A DNA stretch of 34,270 nt from an uncultured Bacteroidales bacterium (lineage in GTDB: Bacteria > Bacteroidota > Bacteroidia > Bacteroidales > Bacteroidaceae), in contig CAMGHE010000012.1 in NCBI GenBank assembly GCA_946055775.1, forward strand, positions 1 through 34,270, read 5' to 3'. Numbering within the stretch: position 1 is the first letter of the stretch; every line of letters begins with the position of its first letter. Under the pieces are notes generated by a model that was not told the origin of the DNA, did not search any database, and saw only the letters and a program-made list of their open reading frames with translations. Positions 30,874 through 34,270 of the stretch are shown here, piece after piece. A program made the translations under genes and the position numbers.

Positions 30874-31477
30874 ATGAAACGTTTTTCCTCTTTATCTGCT
30901 CTGCTCATCGCCGCCTCGCTGGCCCTTGCGCCATCGCTCCACGCCCAAAAGGGATGGAGTGCCGACAACGGCGATGGCACGTTCACCAACCCCCTGCTAT
31001 GGGGCGACTGGCCCGACCCCGACGTCATCCGCGTGGACGACACCTATTATATGGTCTCCACCAGCATGCACTACGTGCCGGGCGTGCCCGTGCTCTCATC
31101 GCGCGACCTTGTCCACTGGAAGCCCGAAAGCTATGCCGTCGCCCGCTACGACGAAGACCCACGCTACGACATGCAGGGCGGCACGCTCTATCTCAACGGT
31201 GCTTGGGCCTCGTCCATCCGCCACCACAACGGCAAGTTTTACGTCGCCTTCTGCACCCCCTACGGCTGGGGCACGAAGGATGGCCACTTCTCCATCTGCG
31301 AGGCCGACAGTCCGAAGGGCCCCTGGAAGCGCACGATATTCCCCGACTACCTCTACGACCCCGGTCTGTTCATCGACGAGGACGGCCGCGGCTATGTGGT
31401 GCATGGACAGGGTACGCTGCGTGTCACGCCGCTCGGGCTATGCCGACTTCGACAAATTCCGTCTGATCACCAAATAG
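30874..31477 (+). pseudogene. GH43 glycoside hydrolase with internal deletion
   Basis: Remnant of a secreted family-43 beta-xylosidase/arabinofuranosidase. The signal peptide (ending LALAPSLHAQ) and first ~190 residues are intact: NPLLWGDWPDPDVIRVDDTYY (catalytic base Asp region), LSSRDLVHWKP, and DPGLFIDEDGRGYVVHGQG. Then the frame breaks near 31425-31440. A different frame supplies only GYADFDKFRLITK and a stop, which looks like the extreme C-terminus of such enzymes. So the catalytic blades 3-5 and the C-terminal beta-sandwich, roughly 1 kb, appear deleted. The ORF track's 254-residue version continues into noncoding sequence and the terminator hairpin. It could be a real deletion or an assembly collapse. 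Confidence 0.8.
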
Positions 31478-31527
31478 CGCAGCGCAGGGCACACGCTGCC
31501 CCCCCGACCTTCTTTTTGACCAATTAT

Positions 31528-31587
31528 AAGAACTCTCCCTATAGAGCCCATTGCTGCGGCTCTGTGGGGAGAGTTCTTTTGTTGTTG
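31528..31587 (+). terminator. Intrinsic terminator between GH43 remnant and yqeY
   Basis: A 12-bp stem (aagaactctccc / gggagagttctt) encloses a second 6-bp stem (agagcc / ggctct), followed by a T-rich ttgttgttg tail. It sits between convergent genes and may act on both strands. Confidence 0.85.
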
Positions 31588-31634
31588 TGCTGTAAGGCTT
31601 GGCCCCACCAGCACAATCGCTTATTTGGGCCGTT

Positions 31635-32087
31635 TTAGGCCGTGAGAAGGCGTTTCACCAGGTCGGCGATGGCTTTACCGTCTGCCTTACCTGCCAAGCG
31701 CTTAGAGACCACGCCCATGACGCGACCCATATCCTTCGGACTGGCGGCACCCGTCTCGGCGATGATGGCGCGCACCTCGGCCTCCAGTTCTTCGGCTGTC
31801 AGGGCGCGGGGCAGATAGCCCTCGATGACGGCAGCCTGTCCGTCCTCTTCCTCGGCCAGGTCGGGGCGGTTCTGCTCACGGTAGAGGGCGGCGGTATCGC
31901 GGCCCTGCTTAGCCAGTTTGGCGAGTATTTTCAGTGCGACGTCGTCGGTCAGCGTATCGTTGGCGCCCGGGGCGGTCTTGGCTTCGATGAAAAATTTCTT
32001 GATGTTGCGGAGCGCTTCGAGGCGCACCTTGTCTTTGGCCTTCATGGCGGCCACGATGTCTTTCGACACCTGTTCAAACAATGTCAT
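31635..32087 (-). CDS. GatB/YqeY domain-containing protein
   Basis: A 150-residue protein of the YqeY family, homologous to the tail domain of amidotransferase subunit GatB and possibly tRNA-binding; physiological role unclear. Recognised from MTLFEQVSKDIVAAMKAKDKVRLEALRNIKK at the start and the C-terminal SPKDMGRVMGVVSKRLAGKADGKAIADLVK. The ATG is chosen because the ORF-track extension upstream overlaps ftsZ. It lies 37 bp after the ftsZ stop, the same order (ftsZ then yqeY) as in other Bacteroidales, so it is probably the last gene of the division cluster transcript. Confidence 0.92.
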   Translation of the reverse strand: MTLFEQVSKDIVAAMKAKDKVRLEALRNIKKFFIEAKTAPGANDTLTDDVALKILAKLAKQGRDTAALYREQNRPDLAEEEDGQAAVIEGYLPRALTAEELEAEVRAIIAETGAASPKDMGRVMGVVSKRLAGKADGKAIADLVKRLLTA

Positions 32088-32124: not shown

Positions 32125-33429
32125 TCAAGGGTTACCGGCGGTGAAGTCAATCTCGGGGCCTGCGTTGTCCAGAGGCTGTGTGGTGCCCTGCATGGCCGCC
32201 AGTTGTGCCAGTTGCTGGCTAGTGCGGCATGCTGTGGGCACGGCATCGACCGCCTCGACCAGGGCCTCGTCGTCCAGGTGTTCGTCGTCGTAGAGGAAGA
32301 TGCGCGTATGTCGGCGGCGTGGTTGTGTGGCCGCAGCGCGATCCAGTTCGGGATAGGCTGCGGTGCGGCGTTCGCGGCGCTCGTCGTCGGCCGGTCCTTG
32401 GGGTGGGGTGGGCACGGGGCGCTCCATTGGCGTGGCAGCGGTGTCGCTATTGTCCTTGCGGCGGTAGAGGGTGTAGCCCGAGGCCAGGATGGTGATGCGC
32501 ACGGCATCGCCGACGCTGTCATCGACCGTCAGACCCCACTTGGTATCGACGTCGGTCGTCATGCGAGCGGTGAACTGGTTCACCTCGGCCATCTCCTCCA
32601 TGCGCAGCATCTGGTCGGGGCGGCTGCTGGTGGTGATGCTCAGGATGAGGCGGCGGGCGCGATAGACGTCATTTTGGTTGAGCAGGGGCGAGTAGAGGGC
32701 GTCCTCGATGGCGCGTGTGACGCGCCCCTCGCCGCGTCCGTAGCCGGTGGACATGATGGCCACGCCACCGTTGCGCAGGACGTTGCTGACGTCGCGGAAG
32801 TCGAGGCCCACGCGGCCCCTCATGGTGATGATCTCGACGATGCTGCGCACGGCCGTGGTGAGCGTCTGGTCGGCCTTGCGAAAGCCGTCGATGACGGTGA
32901 GATTGGGGTATATCTCAAAGAGCCGCTGGTTGTTGATGACCAGAACGGCGTCGGCCTCGGCGGCGAGGGTCTCGAGGCCGTCGAGGGCCTTGTCGATGAC
33001 GCGCTCACGCTCGAAGAGGAAGGGCAGGGTGACCACACCCACCGTCAGTATGCCGCGGCGTCGGGCCTCGCGGGCAATGATGGGCGAGGCGCCGGTTCCT
33101 GTGCCACCGCCCATGCCGGCGGTGACGAAGACCATCTTGATATGCTTGTCAAAGGCGGCCCCGATGGCCCCGATGGCCTCCTCGGCCAGGTGGCGTCCTG
33201 TCACGGGTGAGCCGCCGGCGCCCAGACCTGGCCCCATCTGCAGTTTGTCGGGCACGATGTTGGTCTCAAGGGCCTTGCGGTCGGTGTTGCAGATAAGGAA
33301 GTTGACGCCGTCGATGCCCTCGCGGTACATCTGTGCCACGGCATTGCCGCCACCGCCGCCCACACCAATCACCTTGATGATGGAGGGCGTGGCCATGATG
33401 GTGGGTTCAACGAGCAGGGTATCGTTCAT
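32125..33429 (-). CDS. ftsZ: FtsZ paralog, second (downstream) copy
   Basis: Tubulin-like GTPase of the division ring. It has 434 residues. Nucleotide-binding elements are intact: IKVIGVGGGGGNAV (T1), CNTDRKAL, GPGLGAGGSPVTGR (T3), the tubulin signature AGMGGGTGTGASP (~105-117) and INNQRLFE. The T7 synergy loop, normally N-x-D-F-x-D, reads GRVGLDFRDV: the Asn equivalent to E. coli N207 is Gly, while both Asp remain. The C-terminal linker is Pro/Arg/Asp-rich and ends with RRRHTRIFLYDDEHLDDEALVEAV, resembling the other copy. It lies 158 bp downstream of another ftsZ on the same strand, with no terminator between. The two are clearly diverged paralogs, not a recent duplication. Confidence 0.93.
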   Translation of the reverse strand: MNDTLLVEPTIMATPSIIKVIGVGGGGGNAVAQMYREGIDGVNFLICNTDRKALETNIVPDKLQMGPGLGAGGSPVTGRHLAEEAIGAIGAAFDKHIKMVFVTAGMGGGTGTGASPIIAREARRRGILTVGVVTLPFLFERERVIDKALDGLETLAAEADAVLVINNQRLFEIYPNLTVIDGFRKADQTLTTAVRSIVEIITMRGRVGLDFRDVSNVLRNGGVAIMSTGYGRGEGRVTRAIEDALYSPLLNQNDVYRARRLILSITTSSRPDQMLRMEEMAEVNQFTARMTTDVDTKWGLTVDDSVGDAVRITILASGYTLYRRKDNSDTAATPMERPVPTPPQGPADDERRERRTAAYPELDRAAATQPRRRHTRIFLYDDEHLDDEALVEAVDAVPTACRTSQQLAQLAAMQGTTQPLDNAGPEIDFTAGNP

Positions 33430-33587
33430 GAGGCGTGGGGATGAAGGGGTAGGGGAGAAGAGGGAGGCGGAAGATGGAAGCTACAGGGAAGGGGGCCATT
33501 AACGCCGCACTGCGCCCCCCGCCCGCCGTGTGGATGGGGGCATGGGCGGCGCAGCGCAAGAGGGGGGGGAGGGTAGGGGAGCCGGCG

Positions 33588-34270
33588 TCAGAAGGATATG
33601 ACGCTGCTGACCGACTCGGGCTCAACGGCAGCATCGCCGAAGGCCTTGTTTTTGATGGCGTTGAGTTCCTCCTTGTTGCGTTTGTAGGTGGGTGTCATCT
33701 CCACGAGCGAGATGATTTCCTCGTTGTCCAGGTCTTCCGGTCCGAAGAGGAAGACGCGCGGATGGCGGCGCTGTCCGCGGCGCTTCTCGTTGGTACCGTA
33801 ATACTGGCTGCGGCGGTCGTCATACTCCTCCTGTCGTTCGGCGGCCTGCTGGCGGCGCTTCTCGTCTTCCATCTCCATCTTGGCCTGCATACCCGGCACG
33901 TTGCTGATGCCGAAGCCCGTGGCCAGGATGGTAATCTTGACGCGCTTTTCGAGCGAGGGGTCGGTGGAGAGTCCCCATTTGGTCTCTACATCGTCGTGAA
34001 ATTTCGACATGAAGTCGTGCACCTCGTTCATCTCCTCCATCATGAGCGAGTCGCCCTCCTTCTCGGCGCAGAAGGAGATGGAGAGGAGCACCTTCTTCGA
34101 GTTGAAGATATCGTTATTGTTGAGCAGGGGCGAGTGTAGAGCATCGTTGATGGCCTTGGTGACACGTCCCTCGCCCTCGCCGAAGCCGGTGGACATGATG
34201 GCCACGCCGCCGTCTTTGAGCACGGTGCATACGTCGCGGAAGTCGAGGTTGATGATGCCGTGCATGGTGA
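33588..34270 (-). CDS. ftsZ: FtsZ, first copy (5' truncated by window edge)
   Basis: C-terminal 227 codons of a second FtsZ; the GTPase N-terminal half lies beyond base 34270. The T7 loop is canonical (IINLDFRDV, with Asn), followed by GGVAIMSTGFGEGEGRVTKAINDALHSPLLNNNDI, and the C-terminal domain VKITILATGFG. The linker is Glu/Arg/Gln-rich and probably disordered, then RRHPRVFLFGPEDLDNEEIISLVE and TPTYKRNKEELNAI, the C-terminal segment expected to bind membrane anchors such as FtsA. The frame continues past the ORF-track Met to the window edge (TMHGII), so that Met is not the start. This copy looks like the ancestral, functional FtsZ of the dcw cluster. Confidence 0.93.
   Translation of the reverse strand, partial: TMHGIINLDFRDVCTVLKDGGVAIMSTGFGEGEGRVTKAINDALHSPLLNNNDIFNSKKVLLSISFCAEKEGDSLMMEEMNEVHDFMSKFHDDVETKWGLSTDPSLEKRVKITILATGFGISNVPGMQAKMEMEDEKRRQQAAERQEEYDDRRSQYYGTNEKRRGQRRHPRVFLFGPEDLDNEEIISLVEMTPTYKRNKEELNAIKNKAFGDAAVEPESVSSVISF

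Follow-up and report, generated by a model that had tools for sequence, protein, structure and literature searches.

Why would a bacterium keep two ftsZ genes side by side, and what might the second one do once residues of its GTPase site have been replaced? This question is raised by a contig from an uncultured Bacteroidales bacterium, on the minus strand of which two diverged ftsZ copies lie in tandem. The window, meaning the entire stretch of DNA analyzed here, is the whole of contig C12 (34,270 nucleotides), which belongs to a 2.2-Mb assembly of 193 contigs that is 85% complete.

The tandem pair and its gene order

The downstream gene, ftsZ2 (32125..33429, minus strand), is complete and encodes a 434-aa protein (Z2) with a GTPase domain, T7 loop, C-terminal domain, variable linker, and the C-terminal peptide VPTACRTS. 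Upstream of it lies ftsZ1 (33588..34270, minus strand), present only as a C-terminal half that begins shortly ahead of the T7 loop and extends through the C-terminus, since the contig ends inside the gene. A 158-bp spacer (33430..33587, minus strand) separates the ftsZ1 stop from the ftsZ2 start, and yqeY (31635..32087, minus strand; PF09424, E 3e-41) follows as the conserved 3' neighbor of ftsZ2, as judged by synteny. The first-pass annotation had described two tandem ftsZ genes that are homologous but far from identical, and both points hold. Specifically, Z2 matches the two FtsZ domains PF00091 (E 3e-36) and PF12327 (1.5e-12), the half-gene of Z1 matches PF12327 (6.5e-15), and the proteins are 43% identical over their shared part. 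Beyond yqeY, the adjoining GH43-like gene (30874-31638) is truncated, with approximately 990 bp absent relative to the corresponding locus (L167) of the closest relative, G029; the junction, at 31425-31434, joins L167 positions 8875 and 7888.

The N-terminal half of Z1 was not found on any other contig of the 85%-complete assembly, which raises the concerns that the upstream gene might lack its GTPase half or that the pair might be an assembly duplication or a chimera formed at the contig end. The former is answered by G029 (JALEZQ010000057; Bacteroidales MAG SUG481), whose Z2 is 84% identical to that of the window at the protein level and which carries, directly upstream of it, a full-length Z1 with intact T1, T3, T4, T6, and T7. 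As for an artifact, the cut Z1 and its missing half would fit one, but the two copies are only 43% identical, and the search for relatives with the same arrangement found the pair adjacent in 36 of 58 sampled genomes of this Prevotella-like genus (which includes Prevotella sp. MGM2, L034); in other species it lies inside long contigs, among them a single 2.9-Mb contig in G004. An assembly origin is therefore rejected as barely conceivable.

Within the genus, ftsZ is present in 57 of the 58 genomes, and the gene order is murC-ftsQ-ftsA-ftsZ1-ftsZ2-yqeY, where the ftsQ label reflects position and conservation and has no Pfam match behind it. In two further genomes (G051 and G056), Z2 is on a different contig than Z1. 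In G056 (L087, L088), ftsZ2-yqeY and murC-ftsQ-ftsA-ftsZ1 occupy separate contigs that each exceed 1 Mb, from which it follows that the unit has moved. A single ftsZ is the norm for the order, as previously supposed: of the 292 genomes that gave a match in an even Bacteroidales sample, approximately 36 had at least two copies by hand count.

Additional ftsZ genes of other lineages occur in several Bacteroidaceae genera. In genus g11 (L046, L048, and L054), the extra gene lies upstream of the canonical copy and apparently represents an independent tandem duplication. In g5 and g13, the second FtsZ is unlinked and belongs to a separate clade found in other Bacteroidaceae (e.g., L149:4258-5781, L151:3357-4748, and L156:3556-4854), including one-contig genomes; an unannotated gene of 195-210 aa with no Pfam match adjoins the unlinked ftsZ in L149 and L151. 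Two genomes, G008 and G034, possess three ftsZ genes, two of them forming the tandem pair and the third unlinked. Finally, in the basal genome G035 (L078), the upstream ftsZ is highly diverged, with 38% identity and an end branch of 2.45 in the tree, and the downstream ftsZ has Gly in its T7 loop.

Origin and retention of the second copy

In trees built from these copies, all downstream genes of the genus form one starred clade, with SH-aLRT values of 97 in the 139-row tree and 99 in the 116-row set. The Z2 subclades mirror those of Z1, indicating joint vertical descent. A free quick tree placed Z2 outside all canonical Bacteroidaceae copies; this placement was rejected as long-branch pull because a tree holding Z2 and genus-core Z1 together as one clade is 16.2 lnL better (p-AU 0.694), and the data thus agree with a single tandem duplication within the genus. 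A relationship with, or import from, the unlinked extra FtsZ, which a common Gly in the T3 loop had suggested, was also discarded, as the two groups form separate starred clades in both tree sets. Judged from sequence, a single tandem duplication of ftsZ1 gave rise to ftsZ2, an FtsZ paralogue that is specific to the genus and has remained within the division gene cluster.

The paralogue has also been cleanly lost several times. In G012, G013, G023, and G049, all nested among Z2 carriers, ftsZ1 is followed directly by yqeY, and these clean losses imply that Z2 is dispensable in evolution. Where it is kept, Z2 is evidently no pseudogene and is under purifying selection, evolving several times faster than Z1. 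Between close species, dN/dS ranges from 0.05 to 0.35 for Z2 and from 0.007 to 0.11 for Z1, with some dS values saturated; Z2 remained below 0.4 in all 11 pairs and above Z1 in every pair for which both could be computed. The pair that includes the window gave 0.27 for Z2 and 0.036 for Z1.

Active-site residues and fold of Z2

GTP hydrolysis by FtsZ takes place between two subunits, where N208, D210, and D213 come from the T7 loop of one, and the GTP-binding subunit contributes D46, Q48, G72, E139, and R143, among others (PMC8936486). Residues are numbered here after S. aureus FtsZ (SaFtsZ), as mapped by alignment, and the comparison covers 38 Z2, 34 Z1, and 20 outgroup canonical copies. The Asn-to-Gly replacement noticed in the T7 loop of the downstream copy is real: the window's Z2 reads GLDFRDV, with ggc (Gly) at codon 208 (32808-32806, minus strand; E. 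coli N207), and its Z1 reads NLDFRDV, with aac (Asn) at 34250-34248 (minus strand). The T7 pattern NxDFxD is thus broken in the window's Z2 at its Asn, with the Phe and the catalytic Asp pair kept (D210 and D213, within DFRD at codons 210-213; 32791..32802, minus strand), and the protein is an FtsZ by descent. A second altered active-site residue had been overlooked and, by alignment, is the arginine-finger-like position of R143, where codon 144 of the window's Z2 (32998..33000, minus strand) encodes Val in place of a basic residue.

The accompanying claim that the GTP-binding motifs are intact stands for T1 (GGGGGN, fitting GGGGxN) and for T4 with the tubulin signature (GGGTGTG), and fails for T3 (GAGG for GAGN) and T5/H5 (FERERV for FEGxKK). 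The T3 change, at codon 73 (33211..33213, minus strand), is a class signature: Gly73 is found in 38/38 Z2, and each of the 54 canonical sequences (Z1 plus outgroup) has Asn. Further residues of the class are Leu or Tyr81 (37/38) and Val194 (34/38). The core of the site is well kept, with N25, N44, D46, G72, E139, N166, F183, D187, D210, and D213 invariant in every Z2; Z2 fully conserves 60 of the 144 positions that do not vary among canonical copies, and the GTP loops, D46, D210, and D213 belong to these 60. The description of an additional FtsZ in which the GTP-binding core is retained and the GTPase half-site is altered at T7 is supported.

The Asn-to-Gly change is, however, evidently a lineage-specific state and not the mark of the Z2 class. 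Alignment of the T7 loops of all second copies, which the first-pass annotation had proposed, showed Asn208 lost in 12 and kept in 26 of 38 (Gly in 5, Leu in 2, and Asp, Tyr, Thr, Met, and Ile in one each), and the change was thus rejected as a class-defining event; in the canonical comparison, Asn208 is present in 34/34 Z1 and 20/20 outgroup copies. At the R143 position, all 54 of these canonical copies have Lys. The residue found there in Z2 is Gln in 17, Arg in 10, Lys in 6, Val in 2, Asn in 2, and Thr in 1, making it non-basic in 22 of 38, a loss more frequent than that of Asn208. Each of the two positions has undergone at least seven state changes on the tree, and a linked loss of N208 and R143 was rejected for want of any association (Fisher p = 1). 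Asn is also missing from two canonical-position copies, those of G040 (His) and G035 (Gly), so losing it is not necessarily disabling in this lineage, and a T7 change alone is poorly read as lost activity.

An AlphaFold2 model of Z2 (pLDDT 81) has the FtsZ fold, and its top PDB match is SaFtsZ bound to GDP-BeF3-Mg (7ohk; TM-score by target, 0.90). Z2 thus has in common with canonical FtsZ (TIGR00065; SaFtsZ 7ohk, 7ojb, and 7ojd) the fold, T1 and T4, the catalytic Asp pair, and the C-terminal domain. Unlike canonical FtsZ, the window's Z2 lacks N208 and the R143 equivalent, has Gly73 in T3, and scores 283.4 bits against TIGR00065, just below the NCBIfam equivalog cut-off of 295.2. In the C-terminal peptide, which in its PTYKR-type form serves membrane tethers, PTxxR is retained by most Z2; an aromatic residue is present in 9/37 Z2, 20/34 Z1, and 16/20 outgroup canonical copies. 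Beyond this peptide, many Z1 and Z2 proteins terminate with a short hydrophobic sequence of the VISF, EIDF, or TIVF type (for instance, at 33588-33620 and 32125-32160 in the window), possibly a second binding motif.

Possible roles for Z2

It is tempting to suggest that the ftsZ2 product is a GTP-binding accessory subunit, non-essential to the cell, that joins FtsZ1 filaments, slows hydrolysis, and tunes ring turnover, and this reading has about an even chance of being correct. The T7 face of Z2 would still offer the catalytic Asp pair to a neighboring subunit. Its nucleotide face would keep GTP binding but often lacks the positive charge that helps hydrolysis (the R143 position, Val in the window), and in some species, including that of the window, the T7 Asn is missing as well. 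Z2 would bind GTP and be held at interfaces with Z1, and with these alterations, hydrolysis at Z2-containing interfaces would be expected to be slower than at Z1-Z1 interfaces. Slower hydrolysis would in turn allow Z2 to stabilize or locally cap the filaments and thereby tune the turnover of the ring. In S. aureus, the R143K and Q48A substitutions lower GTPase activity approximately 6-fold and make filaments more stable, and R143Q, N208L, D210N, and D213N prevent assembly (PMC8936486). Slow hydrolysis, as first proposed for the second FtsZ, is consequently not automatic, and assembly with Z1 has to be assumed, because N208L and R143Q abolish assembly of SaFtsZ (PMC8936486). By the same token, Z2 might stay out of filaments altogether. 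A basic residue occupies position 143 in 16/38 Z2 and Asn208 is kept in 26/38. As the degenerate site is not uniform across Z2, one common mechanism may not fit all species.

Alternatively, the Asn-to-Gly change may be functionally mild and Z2 an active GTPase with altered kinetics, which is possible but clearly less probable than an accessory subunit. In SaFtsZ, Q48 locks the T7 potassium ion; a Lys at this site may stand in for the ion that N208 helps to hold, making the Asn side chain dispensable. The corresponding Lys52 is present in 38/38 Z2 and 34/34 Z1. In a 173-row set, the 14 FtsZ proteins without Asn208 all have Lys48, including the canonical-position copies of G040 and G035, as does a fifteenth such row, a remote homologue of 22% identity; Asn208 is lacking in none of the 33 Gln48 copies, and the converse combination, Gln48 with Lys208, occurs in one unlinked copy. 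This pattern is confounded by phylogeny, as nearly all sampled Lys48 copies come from related genera, and a mild T7 change leaves the loss of the R143 equivalent unexplained. A further idea is that Z2 is an independent second FtsZ with its own filaments and a separate task, such as another stage of division. The class-specific fixed residues at positions 73, 81, and 194 would suit a separate task, as would a linker and tail that share only 18% and 33% identity with those of Z1 in the same genome. Nevertheless, both halves of a Z2-Z2 site in the window are degenerate (Gly208 and, in place of R143, Val), the single mutations N208L and R143Q already block assembly of SaFtsZ, and Z2 remains in an operon with ftsZ1, all of which make this an unlikely explanation.

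A redundant duplicate under relaxed selection, heading for loss and without a specific role, would account for the long branches, the several clean losses, and dN/dS values (up to 0.35) above those of Z1 in every computable pair. These values are nevertheless far below 1, and 60 invariant positions are retained genus-wide; reading frames are full-length across the Z2 clade, save for one fragment at a contig end. Together with the conserved class-specific substitutions and the retention of Z2 alongside saturated dS, this renders mere redundancy rather improbable. Equally doubtful is a heteropolymer model, drawn by analogy with alpha/beta-tubulin, in which FtsZ1 and FtsZ2 would form a bacterial filament with unequal interfaces, where Z2 would bind GTP with poor hydrolysis at its own nucleotide face and lend its catalytic Asp pair to Z1.

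A functional precedent for an accessory subunit is seen in plant plastids, where AtFtsZ1 restrains AtFtsZ2 filaments (PMC8142252). There, likewise, two paralogues descend from an old duplication and one changes the dynamics of the other (PMC8142252). However, plant FtsZ1 keeps its GTPase activity, which is required for its effect (PMC8142252), in contrast to the reading favored for Z2; the plastid duplication is unrelated to that of Z2, and the plastid genes form no bacterial tandem operon. Bacterial extras are known from Agrobacterium tumefaciens, in which one of three FtsZ homologues is essential and full-length and the others are non-essential (PMC13170164). None of those additional homologues is a full-length protein that includes a linker and a C-terminal peptide, whereas Z2 has a linker and a peptide of this kind and lies in tandem with ftsZ1. 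In archaea (Haloferax and Odinarchaeota), a dual FtsZ system shows division of labor (PMC12583498); that pair stems from an ancient duplication, and Z2 is confined to one genus. Extra FtsZ copies are thus already known from alphaproteobacteria, archaea, and plastids. The literature searched contained no report of paired tandem ftsZ genes from Bacteroidales, although this is not proof of absence.

Taken as a whole, the catalytic half-sites of Z2 decay independently across many species and amount to a natural mutagenesis series, in which the cells of approximately 38 species each contain a canonical FtsZ together with an altered one. Such a series allows one to ask which active-site residues serve assembly and which serve hydrolysis only, and whether a bacterial ring can set its turnover by means of a non-hydrolysing subunit.
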